Shown here piece by piece: positions 1-9,195 of a DNA stretch of 64,000 nucleotides. This stretch comes from Candidatus Saccharimonadota bacterium. GTDB taxonomy: Bacteria; Patescibacteriota; Saccharimonadia; Saccharimonadales; Saccharimonadaceae. The stretch is taken from NCBI GenBank assembly GCA_017433765.1, contig JAFRGO010000005.1:1-64000 (forward strand), written 5' to 3'. The notes beneath the pieces are model-generated. The model saw only the letters and a program-made list of their open reading frames with translations, had not been told where the DNA came from and searched no databases. The position numbers and the translations under genes were made by a program. Position 1 is the stretch's first letter. Each line of letters starts with the position of its first letter.

Positions 1-1152
1 CGTAAATTCTAAAGAATTGAGGATACTTTCAACTTTTTCGTGAAGCTCATCCTTGGTGATTGAGAACTTACACTTACTTCTGCGACATTTGTATCGACTA
101 TATTTCTTCGTACTTACCCCATTTGTGCTAGCATAACCCACTAATTTGCTTCTGTCGCTCTTACCAATCCTCCCCGCCTTTTCTTCCTCTTCGTGGCATT
201 CTTTATGGCGAGTAATAATGTTTAGCAAAAAATCTGGGTTACCATTTTTGCGCTTCGGACCTTCGCAATGTTTAGATTTATGATTAACCAAATCTAAAAT
301 GTATAGATGTTGCTCCTTTGTAATCAGGGCTTCATGTTTCCCATGCTCGCACCGAGCTTTTATATACTTACCATTCTTCTCAACGATTCCTGCATAATAT
401 GGGTCAGAAACTACTTTTTTCCATCTGTCGAAAGTATAGCCTTTCTGTTTTCCGCTTTTAACATACGGAGTATTGTTGTATTCTTCCATAGATTTGTGAA
501 GAGATATAAGCCCATTTCCTAATCTCGTCAAAATATTCTTTAGATAGGGCTTTAATTCTGGAATAGGCACATGTACTCCAGGCTCAGTACCTTTCATATA
601 CCCAAATTTTGGCATAAATGGATAACGACCGTCTTTTATTGCGGCAGTTTGTCCACTTACCGCCTTATTAAATCGCTCCATGTTGCTATTTTGCGCAAAA
701 TAATACTGCATTGAACGTTGAAAATCTATAAAATTACGCTCTTGCTCTGTAGAATCGTCGCTATAATTCAGCTCCGGATTCTTTGCAAATAAGACAACTA
801 CACCGAGCTTCGCAAACTCTACTTCATAATAATTCGCTTCTTTCATGGAGCGCATAAACCTATCGGGTTCGTTTATAAAAATATATCTAATTCGCCTGTA
901 TTTCTTACAAACATCCAGCATTTCTCGTAAATCCTTACGCGATACATTTTTACCCTGCCGACTTGACTGTACCCCAATCCACCAACCACCGCCTTTTCTT
1001 CCAACTTCTAACTCGTTAGGGATATGAGCGTTATATTGTTCGGCAATCTTTTCTATATTTTGCCTCTGGTGCTCTAGGCTATCGCTGTCTTCCTGAGCCC
1101 AAGAAGACACGCGACAGTTTGCTAAAGCCCAGACATCACTCCGGGTGGACAT
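1..1152 (-). CDS. Large serine recombinase (3' end cut by window edge)
   Basis: Read directly from the minus strand: about 384 codons are open from the ATG at 1152 to the window edge, with no stop reached. The N-terminus has the serine-recombinase signature CRVSSWAQEDSDSLEHQR, with the presumed nucleophile Ser in RVSS, followed by the usual region ending in the EPDRFMR segment. A recombinase domain with SDPYYAGIVEKNGKY and a Cys-containing stretch (RYKCRRSKCKF) follow, as in large serine integrases and transposon recombinases. Such enzymes cut and rejoin DNA through a phosphoserine link to move mobile elements. The stop codon of the upstream fragment touches this ATG (TAAATG), so translation is probably coupled. 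It is likely the mobility gene of the AT-rich island. The family is clear; the target site is not visible. Confidence 0.88.
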   Translation of the reverse strand, partial: MSTRSDVWALANCRVSSWAQEDSDSLEHQRQNIEKIAEQYNAHIPNELEVGRKGGGWWIGVQSSRQGKNVSRKDLREMLDVCKKYRRIRYIFINEPDRFMRSMKEANYYEVEFAKLGVVVLFAKNPELNYSDDSTEQERNFIDFQRSMQYYFAQNSNMERFNKAVSGQTAAIKDGRYPFMPKFGYMKGTEPGVHVPIPELKPYLKNILTRLGNGLISLHKSMEEYNNTPYVKSGKQKGYTFDRWKKVVSDPYYAGIVEKNGKYIKARCEHGKHEALITKEQHLYILDLVNHKSKHCEGPKRKNGNPDFLLNIITRHKECHEEEEKAGRIGKSDRSKLVGYASTNGVSTKKYSRYKCRRSKCKFSITKDELHEKVESILNSLEFT

Positions 1153-1393
1153 TTACTGAAGCCTTTCTTGGCTTTCAGGAAAAACTAGTGTAATTCCCAA
1201 GTCATTAAATTTTGCTTCAAAATATTGCAACTCATATAGGCTACGTGCGAAACGTAAATCCTCATTGCTTAGAAAGACGCGTTTAATGTCTGTCTTATAT
1301 TCCATGCACGCTTTTAATAGGTTGCTCATTTTTTTTACTAAAATTAACGCAATCGATGGGTTTAATATTGGTTGTAAAAGAGTTCAAATTCAT
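1153..1393 (-). pseudogene. Resolvase-like fragment, frameshifted at a run of eight A
   Basis: Two short minus-strand frames together resemble the middle of a serine-recombinase catalytic domain. The first starts at ATG 1393 behind an AGGAG ribosome site (MNLNSFTTNIKPIDCVNFSKK) and closes at 1295. The second is open from ATG 1329 to TAA 1153-1155 (58 residues) and aligns by eye with the catalytic domain of the neighbouring recombinase (KRVFLSNEDLRFARS versus RYIFINEPDRFMRS). The frames meet at eight T on the plus strand (1329-1336), where skipping one base joins them. The active-site Ser region is missing, so it is either a decayed copy or a catalytically dead accessory protein made by slippage. 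Its stop abuts the recombinase start. Confidence 0.55.
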
Positions 1394-1545
1394 TTTTTAT
1401 ACTCCTAATTATTATATGAACTTTTTTAGGTAAGTTCCACTTAACCTTATTTTTAGCACTATCCATTTAGTGATATTGCTCGTGTTTCCAAACATCATAT
1501 ATAAATGAGAAAAAATCATAGATAGAATCAACTTTGGATTCGGAA
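1394..1545. other. AT-rich intergenic stretch with a possible minus-strand promoter
   Basis: No gene is seen here. On the minus strand a TATAAT-like box (1408-1417 region, CATATAAT) followed by AGGAG lies just ahead of the ATG at 1393 and probably drives the recombinase fragment and recombinase. Confidence 0.35.
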
Positions 1546-1797
1546 TTAGAGGAGCGTGATGGCATCGCTAAAAGCTCCCCTTCTTCCTTCTTCATCATCC
1601 TCAGCCCATCCAATAGGATTGCGTTCGTCCTCAAAAGACATTCTCGTAGCTTTACGACCGTAATATTTACTTCTTACCCCATTGTCCGGCTTCCATTTTA
1701 GAGGAATATAGTCAATTTTATCCTCAAAAGTTTTTCTCAATCCTTCATTCTTATCGTCTGAATACCCTAGCATAGGCTCTTGTTGCTCGTGAAACAT
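1546..1797 (-). CDS. Hypothetical protein, 83 residues
   Basis: A small charged protein with no signal peptide or membrane segment and no family that I recognise. It is rich in Asp, Glu, Lys and Arg and contains the segment PIGWAEDDEEGRRGAF. The start ATG at 1797 lies just behind a very strong Shine-Dalgarno (AAGGAGGGG) and only nine bases after the stop of the ATPase gene, so the two form one minus-strand operon. Position suggests an accessory gene of the mobile element, for example a small regulator or replication partner, but nothing in the sequence shows the role. Confidence 0.6.
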   Translation of the reverse strand: MFHEQQEPMLGYSDDKNEGLRKTFEDKIDYIPLKWKPDNGVRSKYYGRKATRMSFEDERNPIGWAEDDEEGRRGAFSDAITLL

Positions 1798-1806
1798 AGC
1801 CCCTCC

Positions 1807-3402
1807 TTAATTTGCAGTTAGACTGAGGTTAGATTCTGTTTTATATTGCTCAGGCTGAATACTAGCGACACGCTTGCGCTCGTCCATTTCGTCCTCAGTT
1901 AGAGGGTGTCCATCTTTACTAAAGCACATAAACGGTACATTTTCTGGGAAAGGGTAGTTCCTATCAACAAAGTAAGTTGTACGGACATTATTTTCCACCC
2001 CGAAAGTCATTTCGATATTGGCTTCTTTAAGCATACCTTCTGCCCGGCGAAGCCTTTTGCCAATCTGGCTCGAATCTTTAGGCCAATTTGGGTGGCTTGA
2101 CAACAAGTGAATCTCCTCAAGTCTTGAATCTTGATGAATCAGATAAGGAGACAGTTCAATGTCCCTAGCACTACCTTTCCAACGGACAAGATTATTCGTC
2201 ATATACTTGACAAGTTTGGCGATGGAGTCCGCTTCGATACTTTCTTCAATCTGCCGTTCCTTATTCCCAATAAGCAACTTCTGGAATTCCGAAAAAGACT
2301 GGTTGTTAATGGCAGAATAGATTGCGCACCCCCACCTCCCAAAGTCAGCCATTCTTGGAAGACCGCTAGTTGGTGTTTCCGGAAAAATCTTCATGGCTTG
2401 AGACAAAACGGTAAAAATTGCGCCTAATATTTGAGGTTTTTCCTCATTGAACTTACCCCAAAGTTCCAGCTCCGTTAGGCGCTTTTCTTCAGGAATGCGC
2501 TCAACATTTAAGATTAACGCTCTATCAAGCAAGTCAGCTTGTGTGATGAAATTGTTAATCCCATTCAACATTAGCGGGCGCTTAAAGTTATATATTACTT
2601 CGTCATCGTCACTATATAAACGGCGCTTCGAGAATCCGTCGCCCGTAATCAGCCGACATAGGACATCAGAGTTATCCTTTTCAAGAAACGACAGGTTATC
2701 GAAAAACAATAATATGTGGCGATTCGCCAAACGAGCAAGTTCCGCTTCGTTCGTAATTTTGCCTGCGCTGACAAGTTGTGATGGGTCTGCTAAATCTTTC
2801 AACATTCTCATTGGCGTGCTCTTGCCTGCACCCTGCGAACCATTTATTACTAAAACTGGCTTCGGGATATCAGGTATAAAACAAGCGACGACGAAAGCTA
2901 AAAACAGATTCCAATCCTTTTCGTCAACAATATTAGTAAATTTGCGAAACGACTGAATATTACCACCCTTTACGGGCTCGACCTGCGCCTTTTGATGACT
3001 GAATCGCCTAAATATAATTGGTGGATTTTCTACTACTTCCCAACCTTTTGACGAGATACGAACCGCCTTCTCCCCTAAGTCGTACCATATTTTATCGCCA
3101 ATCTTGCGAAGTCGTGGTTCTAAACTAAGTTCGCAGTCTTTTCCGTAAAGCGCGAACCCTTCAAGCGCGCGTCTAATATCAGTGGCCTGATTGTTTTTCA
3201 AAATTACGCGATAGTTATAATATGCGTAATTGTTTAGCCACCCAACAAAATCTCGCGAATTGATATTTAATACTTTTGACCCATTTCCGTTGACTGCGAT
3301 ATACGCTTCGCCGAATTGGTCGTGAAAGAGTTTATTGCTTTTGGCAATTTCGCCGACAAAACTGTCCGTCGGCAATCTGAGCACCTTCTTATCTTCGCTC
3401 AT
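1807..3402 (-). CDS. Replication-type P-loop ATPase of a mobile element
   Basis: A 531-residue protein. Residues about 188-196 form a Walker A loop (GSQGAGKST) preceded by beta-strand VLVI, and residues about 229-236 form a Walker B strand (HILLFFDN). The arrangement, with an N-terminal region of about 150 residues that touches no catalytic primase motif, resembles the helicase-like C-terminal half of bifunctional primase-polymerase or D5-type proteins of phages and plasmids. These ATPases unwind DNA at element origins. The start ATG at 3402 follows GGAGGAAAA. It lies in an operon with the 83-residue gene. A helicase role is inference; the ATPase fold is well supported. Confidence 0.72.
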   Translation of the reverse strand: MSEDKKVLRLPTDSFVGEIAKSNKLFHDQFGEAYIAVNGNGSKVLNINSRDFVGWLNNYAYYNYRVILKNNQATDIRRALEGFALYGKDCELSLEPRLRKIGDKIWYDLGEKAVRISSKGWEVVENPPIIFRRFSHQKAQVEPVKGGNIQSFRKFTNIVDEKDWNLFLAFVVACFIPDIPKPVLVINGSQGAGKSTPMRMLKDLADPSQLVSAGKITNEAELARLANRHILLFFDNLSFLEKDNSDVLCRLITGDGFSKRRLYSDDDEVIYNFKRPLMLNGINNFITQADLLDRALILNVERIPEEKRLTELELWGKFNEEKPQILGAIFTVLSQAMKIFPETPTSGLPRMADFGRWGCAIYSAINNQSFSEFQKLLIGNKERQIEESIEADSIAKLVKYMTNNLVRWKGSARDIELSPYLIHQDSRLEEIHLLSSHPNWPKDSSQIGKRLRRAEGMLKEANIEMTFGVENNVRTTYFVDRNYPFPENVPFMCFSKDGHPLTEDEMDERKRVASIQPEQYKTESNLSLTAN

Positions 3403-3499
3403 TTTTCCTCCAATTTAGATTGTTAATATTGGAGAAAACAGCGCTGTTACTCTCGGCTACCGCTGCATCCCGGTAGTTAGCACCATTTTATATGAGAGA

Positions 3500-4438
3500 T
3501 TATTTTTGCTCATTAGACAGAATTTTGCCAATTTTCTGTCCATTATTTATGTCAGACCTGTACTCAGGATTACGATTTTTTGCCCGCCTTACCTTCTTGG
3601 CAATCCTGTCCGTCGTCTTCATATGAGCCATAGTTTTTGTCATCAACGGGTCATTCATAGTCTCGGCTTCATATTCATTGCTATATTCCTGTTTTGCCAG
3701 TTCTCGATAAGATTTTTTATTTTCGCCAGAATTATCGAATTGATGAACTAAAAGATTTGATTCAGTATTTTTTGATAAAAGTTCGGTCGGAATATCAAAA
3801 TTCAGAAATACCTGAAAAACGTCGCCAATGACTTCAAGGTCTTTTTTTGACACCCCTTTATCAATGCGCAAAAAAATTGATTTATTATTGACGCCTTCGA
3901 CGCTGATACGTTTATTTAAATCATCGACAATCTTTAAATTTTTGCCAATTCTCTTAGGGTTCAAAATATACGCAATTATAAATGTGCGCCAACCATCAGG
4001 CAAATTATATTTTTCAATTAAATCTGAAACCTCGACATATACTGAATTTCTTACTACATCTTCCGCCACTTCCCGGCTACTATGACCATTATGTTTTCCA
4101 GACCAACAATTTATGACATAGGCAACCAAAAAATCTTCTGCCTCGTCGTAATCGCTAAAATTCATTATGGGGCAATCTTCATAAATCGGCACATCAAGGC
4201 AGTCCTTACCACGAATCTTAGAAATAAGCATTTTGAAGTCATCGTCTTTAACGATGCTTTTCAAATCTGAGGTTTTCCAATCACCAATACTTCGTTTACG
4301 AGACTCCTCGAAGTAAATTTTGGCACCAAAATCAAGTCGATTGGCAATTTCACGAAATTTTTCCTCATCCGACTTATTTGATTTTTTAACTTCTTTCAAA
4401 AAATCCTCAATATATGCTCGCATTGACGCTATGGACAT
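3500..4438 (-). CDS. Hypothetical protein, 312 residues
   Basis: A soluble, charged, mostly helical protein that I do not recognise. It has no clear catalytic motif; a basic patch near the C-terminus (RIAKKVRRAKNR) could contact nucleic acid. An upstream TTG would add 40 residues, but I chose the ATG at 4438 because an extended -10 box (TGG then TATAAT on the minus strand, 4445-4450) sits exactly six bases upstream, the leaderless pattern used by many genes here. The longer form would need translation through the promoter. It belongs to the AT-rich island between the ATPase and the structured RNA. Confidence 0.6.
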   Translation of the reverse strand: MSIASMRAYIEDFLKEVKKSNKSDEEKFREIANRLDFGAKIYFEESRKRSIGDWKTSDLKSIVKDDDFKMLISKIRGKDCLDVPIYEDCPIMNFSDYDEAEDFLVAYVINCWSGKHNGHSSREVAEDVVRNSVYVEVSDLIEKYNLPDGWRTFIIAYILNPKRIGKNLKIVDDLNKRISVEGVNNKSIFLRIDKGVSKKDLEVIGDVFQVFLNFDIPTELLSKNTESNLLVHQFDNSGENKKSYRELAKQEYSNEYEAETMNDPLMTKTMAHMKTTDRIAKKVRRAKNRNPEYRSDINNGQKIGKILSNEQK

Positions 4439-4444
4439 ATATAC

Positions 4445-4450
4445 ATTATA
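4445..4450 (-). promoter_or_regulatory. -10 box of a leaderless promoter
   Basis: On the minus strand CGTGGTATAAT lies six bases before the ATG at 4438, an extended -10 element that places the transcript start at or next to the start codon. Confidence 0.6.
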
Positions 4451-4601
4451 CCACGGACTACCCCTGATAAAATAGCTGTTCTCCCTTAGTCTCCCATAGC
4501 TCTCCCGCTTTCTCCGGTAAAACCTTATAAAAAGTGTTAACTCAGTCAGAATTCGCAAGAGAAGAAAAACATAAACAATAGTTTTCTTAGCCCAAATATG
4601 A

Positions 4602-4607
4602 TATAAT
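4602..4607 (+). promoter_or_regulatory. -10 box for the structured RNA and 436-residue gene
   Basis: TATGATATAATT is an extended -10 sequence. Seven bases downstream, at 4614, the long stem of the structured RNA begins, so promoter and RNA 5' end agree. Confidence 0.6.
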
Positions 4608-4613
4608 TAAATT

Positions 4614-4757
4614 GTTCTGAATTTCAACTCTATAGCAAGTCTATCCCCGACGAGATAGGCAAAGAGTTAGACTCCAAGTGGAGCACTCGCTCCAGTCAGC
4701 CTAACCGCTTGCTGTAGAAAATGAAGTTCAGAACACTCCATAGCGAGTGTTCCACTT
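4614..4757 (+). ncRNA. Structured leader or small RNA upstream of a membrane-protein gene
   Basis: The first predicted transcribed bases (4614-4639) pair with 4708-4734 to form a long interrupted stem: GTTCTGAA with TTCAGAAC, TTCA with TGAA, and TATAGCAAG with CTTGCTGTA. Inside are a hairpin CTATC/GATAG (4641-4658) and an irregular hairpin GTTAG-ACT-GGAGC closed by GCTCC-AGT-CTAAC (4666-4705). A further hairpin lies at 4732-4751. A competing pairing is also possible: 4677-4691 (AGTGGAGCACTCGCT) can pair over 15 bases with AGCGAGTGTTCCACT at 4742-4756, followed by TTGTTT. Mutually exclusive folds suggest an attenuator or riboswitch-like leader. I know no matching RNA family. Confidence 0.6.
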
Positions 4758-4795
4758 TGTTTATGGAAGCTAATTTTAAAAAATAAGGAGTAAAT

Positions 4796-6106
4796 ATGGC
4801 TAGTGCTGGTAGAGCTAAAGTGCAAGAGCTTAAAGAAAAAATCTCTGAACAAAAGGAGAAAATTGAAGCCCTCGAAAACAATTACGAGGAAAAAATTGAT
4901 AAGCTAGACAATAAGAAACAGGCTCTAGAGCTCAAAGCGTCTGGCTTAAAGTTTATTCCCGGTGCAGGTAGAAAAGCCGACCAAAAGTTAGATGAGATGA
5001 AAGCAGTTTCTAATGAGCTGTCCGCGTTGAAGAAAAAGAAGCGCGAAGAACTCGCTGAAGCTAAGAAGGAACTTGAAAAATTAAAAAACGAATATAACGA
5101 CGCTAAAGAAGAACTGAAGGCAAAGAAAGTCGAAAGTGTAAAAGCGACTGAAAGCAAAACAAAAACCAAGAAGAAAAGCCAAATTGATTTATTTAAGGTA
5201 AGCATTATAATTGGCGTTATTGGCTTACTTATTTTTATACCGTCAAGTTTTACCGCTATAGGAAATGGTAACGCTAAGGGAGTAGGCGGTTTTGGTATTT
5301 TCGTGGGTTTAGTTGCAGTTGCACTTTCAATTTGGTTGCTTCTTCAGGCAAAAAAGCAAGGCGAAAAACTCATTAAACCGATAATAGCACTTGGTTTAGC
5401 TGGTGTTGTAGCATTGGGCTGTCTTATCGCCGTTATAGCCGACCCAATTGCCGTGAACTTAAAATGCTCCGCATATAATAGCGTTGAAGAGATGAAAATT
5501 AGTGATTCTTCGCTCTGCAAAGATAGAGTAGTAGAATTAGAAAAACAGAAACAAGATGAAGAGAATGCGAAAAAAGAGGCTATCGCTAAAGCTAAAGATG
5601 AGTGTTCGGCAAAGAACTACAGCTGGAATTCTAGCGCAAATCGTTGCAACACTGAAGAAGAGCAGAGGAAAGAAAACTCGGAAAAGGAAGCAAAAAGCAG
5701 TTGTTCCGCTAAAAATTACGACTGGAACTCTAGTGAAAAACGATGTAATACAGATTCTGAGCAGCAAGTTGCAAATCAAAAGAAAGCCGAGGAGGAAGCT
5801 AAACGCGCTGAAGCGAACAAAACAACAACATATACCGGAACCGACCACGATGAAAATGATTCTGCTGGAAGATATGCAAAAATCACTGACGCCTGTCTAG
5901 ATAGATTAGACCATCATTATCCTGGAACCTTGCCACTCGGAAGCTATGACGGATACACTATTTATTACAGTGTCACTTTGAAAGGTGATGGAACTCTAGT
6001 TGAAGGATTTATGAACGGTTACCACAAAACCAAAAATGGGCAAAAAATCCTCAGCTATAAGTGTATATATGAAAATGGCTCGGCTAAAATCCAAGGTTTA
6101 GACTAA
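4796..6106 (+). CDS. Coiled-coil membrane protein with SAKNY/CNT repeats
   Basis: A 436-residue protein of unknown function. Residues 1-120 are strongly charged heptad-rich helix, a probable coiled coil on the cytoplasmic side. Three hydrophobic segments follow near residues 135-155, 165-185 and 195-215. The C-terminal half carries two near-identical units, CSAKNYSWNSSANRCNT and CSAKNYDWNSSEKRCNT, whose Cys pairs could form disulfides if this part is outside the cell, and then a compact final domain of about 80 residues. The start ATG follows AAGGAG. It lies downstream of the 180-base structured leader and immediately upstream of a small hydrophobic gene. A surface-sensing or exclusion role for the mobile element is only a guess. 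Confidence 0.75.
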   Translation: MASAGRAKVQELKEKISEQKEKIEALENNYEEKIDKLDNKKQALELKASGLKFIPGAGRKADQKLDEMKAVSNELSALKKKKREELAEAKKELEKLKNEYNDAKEELKAKKVESVKATESKTKTKKKSQIDLFKVSIIIGVIGLLIFIPSSFTAIGNGNAKGVGGFGIFVGLVAVALSIWLLLQAKKQGEKLIKPIIALGLAGVVALGCLIAVIADPIAVNLKCSAYNSVEEMKISDSSLCKDRVVELEKQKQDEENAKKEAIAKAKDECSAKNYSWNSSANRCNTEEEQRKENSEKEAKSSCSAKNYDWNSSEKRCNTDSEQQVANQKKAEEEAKRAEANKTTTYTGTDHDENDSAGRYAKITDACLDRLDHHYPGTLPLGSYDGYTIYYSVTLKGDGTLVEGFMNGYHKTKNGQKILSYKCIYENGSAKIQGLD

Positions 6107-6108
6107 AA

Positions 6109-6252
6109 GTGATTATAGTAATAATCGCAATCGGAAGCCTACTTTTGCTAAGTTATCTTTTAATTCAAGTAATTTTACCACTAATTATGTTTATAGTTAG
6201 CAGTGCGATAATTTTAATAAAAAAATTATTCCTAAAAGGAAGAAGTCAATAA
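6109..6252 (+). CDS. Small hydrophobic membrane protein, 47 residues
   Basis: A GTG-started frame begins two bases after the stop of the coiled-coil gene and ends at TAA 6250-6252. The product is one continuous hydrophobic stretch (rich in Ile, Leu and Val, residues about 2-38) ending in the basic tail KKLFLKGRSQ, the typical look of a small one- or two-span membrane protein. There is no separate ribosome site, so it would depend on translational coupling with the upstream gene. Composition supports it as a real small gene, but no family is recognised. Confidence 0.42.
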   Translation: MIIVIIAIGSLLLLSYLLIQVILPLIMFIVSSAIILIKKLFLKGRSQ

Positions 6253-6288
6253 CTGGATTTACTCTTTAGAAGTTCATATAATTTTGAT

Positions 6289-6546
6289 ATGAGCGACCCA
6301 AAAGCAGAACGGCTAATCCAGCAGTTCTTCACCAAAAAGCCGACCGAGTTCACCAATTCGGCTAAATCCGTGACTATTATGAAGTATTTAGGCTCTGATA
6401 ATTCTTATCATTTTAGAGTTTTAGATAAATTTGATATTGAAGACGAAGTAGAACGCTTAGATTATATGAATTTTTTAAAAGAAAAAATGATTGAATCTGG
6501 TGAGATGAAGAAGCATTTATGGACGAAGGAAACGATTTTGTTCTGA
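6289..6546 (+). CDS. Hypothetical protein, 85 residues
   Basis: A soluble acidic protein of unknown function that ends in TGA. A TATAAT box at 6274-6279 lies shortly before the ATG at 6289 with no Shine-Dalgarno, so the message is probably leaderless or nearly so. It stands directly upstream of the DNA methyltransferase. A controller protein of the restriction-modification system was considered, but no helix-turn-helix is obvious. Confidence 0.5.
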   Translation: MSDPKAERLIQQFFTKKPTEFTNSAKSVTIMKYLGSDNSYHFRVLDKFDIEDEVERLDYMNFLKEKMIESGEMKKHLWTKETILF

Positions 6547-6573
6547 TTTTTCCACAAAAACGTAAGCTATATA

Positions 6574-6602
6574 TTGCGGCGCGCCGCGATTTTTGTTATA
6601 AT
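6574..6602 (+). promoter_or_regulatory. Promoter of the methyltransferase gene with an overlapping palindrome
   Basis: TTGCGG (6574-6579) and TATAAT (6597-6602) are 17 bases apart. The perfect palindrome GCGGCGCGCCGC (6576-6587) covers the -35 box and part of the spacer. In an AT-rich island this GC block stands out and may be an operator, or a target of the encoded cytosine methyltransferase for self-regulation. Confidence 0.5.
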
Positions 6603-6634
6603 GGTTATGTTGATAATATAAAGCGAGGTAATCC

Positions 6635-7612
6635 ATGAAAAAACTAAGTTGCGCTTCTTTCTTTGCCGGCGTCGGTGGGATTGATAAGGGCTTTGAGAAG
6701 ACAAATCATTTTAAGACTATTTATGCAAACGAATTCGACCCATATCCCTGCGAAACCTTTGACTTAAATTTTGATATCAAGTCTGATTGTCGCGATATCC
6801 ATATAATTGAAGCTGACGAAATACCGGATTTTGATGTCCTATTAGCCGGCTTTCCTTGTCAGGCATTCTCAATTGCTGGCTATCGTAAAGGTTTCGAAGA
6901 CGAAAAAGGACGCGGAACTTTATTCTTTGAACTAATTAGAATTATTAAAATAAAAAAACCGAGTATTGTATTTCTTGAAAATGTCAAAAACCTGGTCAGC
7001 CACGATAACGGCAATACTTTCCGCGTTATTCTTGAAGAATTGGAAAAAGAAGGCTACAGCGTAAAATATCAGGTGCTCAACGCTATGGAGTATGGCAACA
7101 TTCCGCAAAACCGAGAACGCATTTATATTGTAGGTTTTAAAGATAAAGAAGTTTATAAAAACTTTGAATTCCCACACCCTCTACAACTTACAAAAAATCT
7201 AGAAGATATTATAGATTTTGATTCAAAGTTGGATGACAAATACTATTACACTGAAGGCAAATACAAAGGCGACATTTACGAAAAACTCGTAGAAGCAATG
7301 GATGACGACAGGGCGGTATATCAATGGCGTAGGCACTATGTTAGGAAAAATAAAAGTGGCGTCGTCCCAACACTTACGGCAAATCAAGGTGAGGGTGGAC
7401 ATAATGTTTGCTTAGTGAAGACAAAGTACGGCATCAGAAAAATGACACCACATGAATGTTTTAATACGCAAGGCTTCGACAAAGATTTTAAATTACCGAC
7501 CAAACAATCCGAGTCCAGACTCTACAAACAAGCCGGAAATTCTGTATGCGTTTCCGTTATAAAACGTATTGCTGAAAAAATAGTTGAGGCTATTGAAGCT
7601 ACAAAAGACTAG
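6635..7612 (+). CDS. DNA (cytosine-5) methyltransferase
   Basis: A 325-residue C5 cytosine methyltransferase that transfers methyl from S-adenosylmethionine to cytosine in DNA. The conserved motifs are all visible: motif I FFAGVGGIDKGF (9-20), motif IV GFPCQAFS with catalytic Cys75, motif VI ENV (about 115), motif VIII QNRERIYIVGF (158-168) and motif X YKQAGNSV near the end. The target recognition region is short. The start ATG follows a GAGG ribosome site. Its 3' end overlaps the convergent nuclease gene by four bases, an arrangement typical of type II restriction-modification. The sequence recognised cannot be read from the protein. Confidence 0.93.
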   Translation: MKKLSCASFFAGVGGIDKGFEKTNHFKTIYANEFDPYPCETFDLNFDIKSDCRDIHIIEADEIPDFDVLLAGFPCQAFSIAGYRKGFEDEKGRGTLFFELIRIIKIKKPSIVFLENVKNLVSHDNGNTFRVILEELEKEGYSVKYQVLNAMEYGNIPQNRERIYIVGFKDKEVYKNFEFPHPLQLTKNLEDIIDFDSKLDDKYYYTEGKYKGDIYEKLVEAMDDDRAVYQWRRHYVRKNKSGVVPTLTANQGEGGHNVCLVKTKYGIRKMTPHECFNTQGFDKDFKLPTKQSESRLYKQAGNSVCVSVIKRIAEKIVEAIEATKD

Positions 7613-8775
7613 TCTTCCGAATCGTCATCTTCATCGATATCTTCGCCAGCGTCTGAATTTGTGCCCATAAACTCATCATAACTTCCTATCTTAGCGAAGG
7701 TGATGGAATACTTATTGTCGCTTTGTTTAGCAATCTTTACTGAATCGACGCCAAAATTTTCAAGCATATCGTAAGTTATGTGGGTATCTGGTGAAATCTT
7801 CAGCACATCATCTATGAGCCAATGGCCTAAAACTTTGTTAGGATTTGACATTAAAGCCTTATCATTATCCTGACAAACTTTAGCAGAAATAACTGCGCCA
7901 TTTGGCATAGCTAATTCAAAAGCCGTATCTCTTGCCGGGAAGAAACTTCTATGAAGCTTATTAAACTCGCTAGAGATACGAATAGAAACCTCGTAAGGAT
8001 TGCGCTCTCTCCCGCCCGCAAATCTCAGATTTAAGCCATTTTTATCTGGCACATATTTACCCTTAGCTTTTGTAAATGAATAAAGTGGAAGATAAACTGA
8101 ATCTTTTTCAGGCTCACTTGTAATGCCTTCGACTACGCCCAATAATTTTTCCTCAAGCAGACTAAACGGGTCATCATAAATTTTTACACTTAAAATCATC
8201 AATGCTTCAACTGAAGAAAAATCTTTATAAAGCGTACTTTTTGAGGTATTGAAAGAATATTTATTGATTCCGTCACTAAAGGTAATCACATTTTTCTTGC
8301 GATTTATGTTTGAGATATGCTCTAAATCGATAGGAACGAGAGGACATTCTACAATCTTGATAATGCCTTTTTCACGAATCGTACAATGATAAATCATGCT
8401 AGAAAGACCATATGCTCTCATAGTGAAGCTGATTCGTTCATTACGCAATTCGGCAATTCTAAGAATCATTTGTTCGTCATCGAGATGTTCATATGTAGGC
8501 TTTTGAGAATTAAATTCGGCAATCTTTTGCAAGCTAGAACCAGTCCAAGTCTTAATACCTATACCAATCCCATCCTTCCTAGCGTCTGCCGTTATATCGG
8601 AACGAGACAAATTTTCCGCCCTCAAACAGCGACAAAATAAGTTTTCCGTAATCCTAGAAGCTAAATACGGATTTTTGCTATTAGAGAAGAGATTTGAAAG
8701 TGACCCTATTAAAACGAGCAGTTTTTCATAATAATCTCGTTCTTCTTTAGTGGTGTTTTCCAAATAAAAAGACAT
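7609..8775 (-). CDS. Probable type II restriction endonuclease
   Basis: A 388-residue protein convergent with, and overlapping, the cytosine methyltransferase, so a partner nuclease is the best reading. Residues 60-77 (SDITADARKDGIGIGIKTW) contain acidic residues followed by GIGIK, compatible with the D...(D/E)xK metal-binding core of PD-(D/E)XK nucleases, with Asp68 and Lys75 as candidates; this is inference. I cannot place it in a named recognition family. The C-terminus is a short acidic tail. The ATG at 8775 lies eight bases downstream of an extended -10 box (TGGTATAAT), so it is read from its own promoter with little or no leader. Confidence 0.7.
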   Translation of the reverse strand: MSFYLENTTKEERDYYEKLLVLIGSLSNLFSNSKNPYLASRITENLFCRCLRAENLSRSDITADARKDGIGIGIKTWTGSSLQKIAEFNSQKPTYEHLDDEQMILRIAELRNERISFTMRAYGLSSMIYHCTIREKGIIKIVECPLVPIDLEHISNINRKKNVITFSDGINKYSFNTSKSTLYKDFSSVEALMILSVKIYDDPFSLLEEKLLGVVEGITSEPEKDSVYLPLYSFTKAKGKYVPDKNGLNLRFAGGRERNPYEVSIRISSEFNKLHRSFFPARDTAFELAMPNGAVISAKVCQDNDKALMSNPNKVLGHWLIDDVLKISPDTHITYDMLENFGVDSVKIAKQSDNKYSITFAKIGSYDEFMGTNSDAGEDIDEDDDSED

Positions 8776-8931
8776 CTAGCAAAATTATACCACGAAAAGC
8801 ATAAAACCGCTAGACAACGAGAAACATACCTTCTCCCTTTAATCCCTTAACGCTCCTAACTGTCTCAGACCAAACACTAGTCCTTATCAAATCACAAAAC
8901 TACTCTACGCCTAAATCAATACTACCACTGC
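8776..8931. other. Intergenic stretch between nuclease and 87-residue gene
   Basis: It holds the minus-strand extended -10 box of the nuclease gene (8784-8789). I see no open frame and no clear terminator for the 87-residue gene. Confidence 0.4.
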
Positions 8932-9195
8932 CTACTCCTCTTCTAACTCACCCTCTTCCTTAGTTTTAACCCACTCTGTTGTTAAAAGAAAAGAATCCAT
9001 ATACTCCCCAACTTGCCAACGATTATATTCTGGCGTGAGAATAGAGTACCACCTCTGTAATTCATTTTTAATTTTTAAAATTTCTTCCTTATTTACTGTA
9101 TCTCCTGTATTTACCGCATTAGATTTTTTTGATATAATAGTGTCGTGTGGCGATACATCTAGAAGTGTAGAACTTTTAGTCGTATTGTCCACCAT
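8932..9195 (-). CDS. Hypothetical protein, 87 residues, overlapping cotH end
   Basis: A small acidic protein with no recognised family, ending in a Glu-rich tail. Its ATG at 9195 lies inside the last codons of the upstream CotH-like gene, a 20-base overlap in another frame, so it could be translated by coupling. Base composition changes sharply here: this gene is AT-rich like the island while CotH is GC-rich, so the junction of acquired and native DNA lies at or very near 9150-9200. The first ~25 residues may not be genuine if the true start is internal. Confidence 0.45.
   Translation of the reverse strand: MVDNTTKSSTLLDVSPHDTIISKKSNAVNTGDTVNKEEILKIKNELQRWYSILTPEYNRWQVGEYMDSFLLTTEWVKTKEEGELEEE

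Follow-up and report, generated by a model that had tools for sequence, protein, structure and literature searches.

The window analysed here is a stretch of 64,000 nucleotides from a Candidatus Saccharimonadota bacterium (GenBank assembly GCA_017433765.1, contig JAFRGO010000005.1, positions 1 to 64,000 of the forward strand). A mobile island occupies its left end, and on this island an extended -10 promoter is followed by a leader RNA and by a gene for a protein with a DUF4407 match (Table 1). The leader, 155 bases in length, almost certainly encodes a conserved and previously uncatalogued cis-acting RNA with two real alternative folds. Judged from its pairings, it probably governs whether transcription stops or continues.

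Table 1. Features of the leader RNA and of the surrounding island in the window (base 1 of the RNA is position 4614)
Feature	Position	Strand	Bases of the RNA	Remarks
Extended -10 promoter, TGATATAAT	4599-4607	+		6 nt ahead of base 1
Whole leader RNA	4614-4768	+		Covariance-model matches in the genus and in other genera, families and classes; no Rfam match
P1, 5' strand	4614-4626	+	1-13	Initial GTTC identical in sequence to the GTTC of segment C
P1, 3' strand	4722-4734	+	109-121	Overlaps segment B; two-sided changes in 12/13 P1 pairs
P2, 5' strand	4629-4639	+	16-26	Two-sided changes in 11/11 P2 pairs
P2, 3' strand	4708-4718	+	95-105	Fold and covariation
P3 hairpin	4640-4659	+	27-32/41-46	Two-sided changes in 6/6 pairs
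P4 stem with apical hairpin P4b (4680-4684/4689-4693)	4666-4705	+	P4 53-60/85-92; P4b 67-71/76-80	Two-sided changes in 7/7 (P4) and 3/5 (P4b) pairs
Conserved CAGUC	4693-4697	+		Comes after P4b
Segment A, candidate antiterminator	4677-4691	+	64-78	Pairs inside P4b or with segment C
Segment B (GAACACTC), candidate left arm of terminator	4731-4738	+	118-125	Pairs with the 5' GTTC (P1) or with segment C
Segment C (GCGAGTGTTCCACT)	4743-4756	+	~130-143	Pairs with A or B
U-rich tract, CTTTGTTT	4755-4762	+		Interrupted by a G in the window copy
Downstream gene	4796-6106	+		436 aa; three membrane-like segments; DUF4407 match
Mobile island with leader	1-9194			At least 9.2 kb, left end beyond the window; recombinase-like and ATPase-like genes, C5 DNA methylase, NgoFVII-like endonuclease
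Large serine recombinase-like frame	1-1152	-		Runs off the left end of the window; probably the island integrase
C5 cytosine DNA methylase	6635-7612
NgoFVII-like endonuclease	7609-8775			Convergent with the methylase, overlap of a few bases

A preliminary description of the locus had proposed a long stem (4614-4639 with 4708-4734) around two hairpins, and this is the minimum-energy fold of the leader. Its energy of -54.9 kcal/mol compares to -31.3 ± 3.7 for dinucleotide shuffles (z -6.35), and none of 200 shuffles equalled it. The alternative of 15 bases, in which 4677-4691 pairs with 4742-4756 ahead of TTGTTT, was also present exactly as claimed. This A:C duplex reaches -28.8 in the window, against a dinucleotide-shuffle mean of -11.3 ± 3.2, and was matched by none of 2000 shuffles. 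The claim that the alternative is mutually exclusive with part of the stem can be refined: the alternative excludes the inner hairpin at 4680-4693 but is compatible with the long stem itself, as a pseudoknot. A third helix, missing from the earlier account, pairs 4731-4738 with 4745-4752 (B:C), and it too is excluded by A:C.

The covariance-model search with homologous leaders that had been suggested was run, and it retrieved many homologues. Compensatory changes, the deciding test in the earlier account, were found in them for the long stem and for both alternative pairings. In an alignment of 52 sequences (51 copies from the genus of the window and one from outside it, fitted to the covariance model), 41 of the 46 pairs of the main stems carry two-sided changes and 95.7% of cells are paired; the covariation score is 0.570, compared to 0.224 for shuffled alignments and at most 0.10 with slid partners. 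The competing helices behave likewise, A:C being 90.3% paired with two-sided changes in 12 of 17 pairs and B:C 96.9% paired with such changes in 5 of 8. A structure-blind MAFFT alignment of 15 copies was also evaluated: the helices, including A:C, are 91.3% paired in it and score 0.377 against 0.214 for shuffles, and RNAalifold recovers P1, P2, P4 and P4b from it unaided. With a fold that beats its shuffles and compensatory changes in its homologues, the leader is a conserved structured RNA.

The strand exchange itself is visible in individual copies. At one position, where segment C carries A or G, segments A and B both switch between U and C. The 5'-terminal GTTC of the RNA recurs in segment C, so that B (GAAC) is able to pair with either, and the three elements change jointly in L097 (GCTT/AAGC/GCTC), L098 (GTCC/GGAC/GTCC) and L107 (GTCT/AGAC/GTCT). 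Partner-swap tests, which ignore the relatedness of the copies, gave -27.5 for native A:C compared to -19.1 kcal/mol for swapped partners, and -10.1 compared to -7.8 for B:C (60 non-redundant copies, p <= 2e-4 each). Two mutually exclusive helices, both covarying, thus have one strand in common. A fourth helix, between the B/C linker (~4738-4745) and a downstream TATGG tract (~4760-4766), was rejected, as it is good in some copies but overall not superior to swapped partners (p 0.19).

In total, 92 copies were examined: approximately 50 belong to one ruminant-gut genus of Saccharibacteria, and the others are spread over some 20 further genera and a few further families of Patescibacteria. A DNA search of 100 related genomes revealed that further species of the genus carry the element, at 74-100% identity and in some genomes in several copies. 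Of 174 genus genomes, 37 contain the 52 copies found with covariance model R1; R2 matched 48 of the 393 genomes searched in the class, from 19 genera, and R3 found matches in several Patescibacteria genomes outside the class. As the large searches were run with stricter filters, these counts are lower bounds. Visual inspection of nine R3 loci, including four from outside the class, showed the same layout, with the gene weakest for L197. A pattern scan of named genomes found genus-type copies in metagenome-assembled genomes of Candidatus Saccharibacteria, mostly from the gut of goat, sheep, roe deer and yak. One rabbit-gut contig (L129) binned as 'uncultured Bacilli' carries the RNA together with Saccharibacteria-type island genes and is probably mis-binned.

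The placement of the RNA between promoter and gene is nearly constant. In 91 of 92 copies a -10 box precedes the RNA by 5-8 nt (mostly 6), and in 74 it has the TGn extension; by comparison, the same -10 test was satisfied in 74 of 276 control windows farther upstream. Given an extended -10 box at near-fixed spacing, transcription in the window would start near 4614. The start codon lies at a median of 37 nt 3' of the RNA in nearly all copies, which rules out a free-standing small RNA. Between leader and start codon, many copies, though not all, also carry another small hairpin (e.g. GCGG..TTCGC) that stops just 5' of the ribosome binding site (L025, L030, L031, L082, L084 and L092). An ATG within the 3' strand of P1 also opens a short frame over B, C and the U-tract (4720-4788 in the window); no ribosome binding site lies ahead of this ATG, and in L024, L030 and L037 a comparable frame enters the downstream gene in phase.

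The window leader had no match in Rfam 15 at gathering or relaxed thresholds, and 13 distant loci searched with E up to 0.5 matched tRNAs only. For lack of a covariance-model match, a known RNA from Rfam, including the fluoride and ZTP riboswitches, T-box, EAR and ribosomal-protein leaders, was rejected. Searches of the open-access literature retrieved no report of a cis-regulatory RNA, the present element included, for Saccharibacteria or other members of the candidate phyla radiation (CPR), an absence that is weak evidence.

Copies outside the genus of the window are informative on how the exchange may work. Behind C they carry a clean U-tract, the longest T-run being at least 5 in 31 of 41 copies, so that B:C looks like an intrinsic terminator there. 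The terminator shape is explicit in L181 (GGACAGTC gatagt GGCTGTCC TTTTTT) and in L171 (GACACC tagagcg GGTGTC C TTTTATTTT). Segment A reads AAAAGGGCACCG in the distant copies and is complementary to C together with the U-tract. A further strand, X1, lies just 5' of P4 and forms with A a pseudoknot that spans P4, for example GTTGAA/TTCAAC in L171, GATGTG/CACATC in L181 and GAGTGATTG/CAATCACTC in L193. Among 31 non-redundant distant copies, X1:A, A:C, B:C, P4 and P1 were each better than swapped partners (p <= 2e-4); of the control combinations, B with A was not better and X with C gave just p 0.017. An arrangement in which X1 holds A, A rivals B for C, and B:C is followed by a U-tract is that of an attenuator. 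In the genus of the window, P4b stands in for X1.

We therefore favour transcription attenuation, with B:C as the putative terminator and A:C as the putative antiterminator, at a probability of roughly 0.6. RNA polymerase would start at about 4614, and the 5' domain P1-P4 would fold first and keep segment A inside P4, held by the local hairpin P4b in the genus of the window and by the upstream X1 pseudoknot in other genera. With A sequestered, C would pair with B as an intrinsic terminator, which takes the last four base pairs of P1, and the gene would be off. With A available, A would capture C (and, in the distant copies, the U-tract), the terminator would be blocked and the gene would be on. 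We infer from the pairings the terminating role of B:C, the antiterminating role of A:C and this on/off direction, and also that the choice is set by a ligand, a protein or a folding-rate signal.

Several observations weigh against this assignment. Within the genus, C is usually followed by CAYTTGGTTTT or CACTTTGTTT (the latter in the window), and the longest T-run is 2-4 in 44 of 51 copies. The strength of a terminator is doubtful where the T-run is interrupted, and this is the weakest point of the model; six Ts are retained in the genus copies L034-L036. B:C is just about 5 bp long, with a mismatch, in some of the distant copies whose P1 has GTTC. A:C outranks B:C in strength in every copy (median -27.9 kcal/mol), adjoins or takes in the U-tract, and crosses P1/P2 as a pseudoknot. 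The neglect of relatedness in the partner-swap tests counts on the same side. A terminator-like site was found at 4731-4752, but chance alone would be expected to yield several of these in the scanned region.

Since A:C lies at the U-tract and is the stronger helix throughout, the roles of the two helices could be reversed. A:C would then be the terminator stem, its A-rich 5' flank facing the U-tract, and B:C, or the P1 that holds B, would be the antiterminating state. In L173 the A:C helix comprises 15 perfect pairs (AAAAAGGACACCGTG/CACGGTGTCCTTTTT), and in general it leads straight into the U-tract. We consider this reversal unlikely but worth keeping in mind. Segment A belongs to the P1/P2 domain, which is transcribed earlier, and A:C would thus be a long-range pseudoknot and not a local hairpin; B:C, on the other hand, is local, with a short loop and the U-tract right behind it.

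The poor U-tract of the genus also leaves room for folds that govern translation or messenger RNA stability, for instance by burying the 5' GTTC in P1 or freeing it through B:C for RNA decay. The covariation of the four 5'-terminal bases with B and C in L097, L098 and L107, by which these bases join the strand exchange, is in line with such a role. The explicit terminators of the distant copies argue against it. The ribosome binding site is located 3' of the RNA, with which it does not pair in any consistent way, and support is lacking for the linker:D pairing (p 0.19), which would extend in its direction. Control at this level is improbable.

Among the known systems closest to the leader are the fluoride (crcB) and ZTP (pfl) riboswitches, which combine a pseudoknot with a terminator platform. 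In these, a strand farther 3' pairs with a loop segment of the 5' domain to give the pseudoknot, and the hairpin that competes as terminator takes one of its strands from the folded domain. The present leader likewise has a loop-to-downstream pseudoknot and a competing putative terminator. It differs in its helices, in the lack of a sequence or covariance-model match and in downstream genes without a common pathway; for lack of such a pathway no ligand is suggested. The first place to look for a binding site would be the unpaired and conserved GAAACAGUNGG, which reads CAGUC in the genus. In the terms of classical attenuators, X1 or P4b would be the anti-antiterminator, A the antiterminator and B:C the terminator. 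Unlike these attenuators, the leader has no conserved leader peptide, and Rfam gave no match to a T-box or to a ribosomal-protein leader. An attenuator based on a leader peptide was rejected because a frame of at least 8 codons preceded by a Shine-Dalgarno sequence starts inside the RNA in just 31 of 92 copies.

The genes behind the leader are diverse. The preliminary description had placed it ahead of a membrane-protein operon; a membrane-protein gene does lie behind it in the window, but the leader is not specific to this gene and is widespread before many unrelated ones. Of 99 genus genomes, 4 have a match to the downstream protein (E <= 1e-3); it is full-length just in the window genome and in that of species G007, and the other two matches are weak and partial. 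Regulation specific to this protein is rejected, given that the RNA occurs in 37 of 174 genomes. The first genes behind the copies form about 35 sequence-unrelated groups, are often accessory or mobile and have no common pathway. They include EcoRI-type and N6 methylases, HsdR-N and PD-(D/E)XK proteins, DUF4352 proteins, a P-type ATPase, an epimerase, YbjQ, PNPOx and TM2-like proteins and many unknowns. Membrane-like segments are found in 48% of first genes, compared to 29% of upstream control genes (p 0.016).

A common 5' element ahead of unrelated accessory operons is also a property of the ops/JUMPstart-RfaH, EAR-LoaP and put systems. Because unrelated, horizontally moving genes have the leader in common directly behind their promoter, it could be a processive antitermination element (put- or EAR-like), recognised by RNA polymerase or by an elongation factor, for read-through of foreign operons. 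Unlike those elements, the present leader has its own terminator-like hairpin and competing strand. A processive element would leave the exchange of C between A and B and the U-tract without a role, and the leader lacks an Rfam match. Each of 10 genomes, whether or not a copy of the RNA was detected in it, has one NusG gene and no specialised paralogue, and on this ground antitermination of the LoaP/RfaH type was rejected. We regard a processive element as very unlikely.

A wider reading can be put forward tentatively: a phylum-wide orphan switch of Patescibacteria (CPR) may travel with mobile accessory genes and put dozens of unrelated, newly acquired genes, among them those for restriction-modification, surface and membrane proteins, under one signal of the cell, for instance contact with the host or a general cue from metabolism or growth. 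Little is known of gene regulation in Saccharibacteria and other CPR bacteria, which are widespread, tiny and parasitic epibionts and for the most part uncultivated, and such a switch would give these ultrasmall cells a shared RNA gate for foreign genes. A switching leader would also yield a regulon readable from sequence alone and a ready-made expression switch for CPR genetics. It would be an unusual riboswitch-like case, in that the signal cannot be read off the downstream genes.

The mobile island proposed in the preliminary description is supported, as positions 1-9194 are 99.95% identical to contig C2 of species G007, compared to about 70% for the chromosome backbone tested (33-36 kb). 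A near-identical island in two species reflects either a very recent transfer or one element cross-binned into two metagenome assemblies. Three G007 copies of the RNA match the window query at 100, 82 and 77% and sit before different genes, which is unlike a recent burst, and a fast-spreading repeat of the miniature inverted-repeat transposable element kind was rejected. A phage element was rejected as well, as no similar phage or plasmid DNA was found and two further viral scans were empty; seven pattern matches in IMG/VR are due to chance, since the covariance model finds nothing there.

Genes appear to have been swapped behind a constant promoter and leader. Between L024 and L025 (G009 and G059), an identity of 99.5% ends exactly at the 3' end of the RNA, different genes follow, and identity then resumes. 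In L026 and L081, promoter and leader are 98.5% identical (-45 to +159) and are followed by unrelated genes with a single membrane segment and then by conserved flanks. These exchanges, confined to the boundary or to promoter and leader, would suit a DNA-level recombination module (an attC-like folded site or an exchangeable promoter-leader cassette) in place of a regulator, which we regard as very unlikely because the fixed -10 spacing and orientation, the alternative pairings and the U-tract are RNA features and homologous recombination between conserved leaders explains the exchange equally well. Serine recombinases, not integron integrases, were noticed nearby, although no systematic search for an integron integrase or attC was made. 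On the island itself, the methylase and the NgoFVII-like endonuclease (6635-8775) are likely a restriction-modification pair. A relative of the island recombinase with 73% identity is present at the rabbit-gut locus L129, together with the leader and a similar downstream protein.
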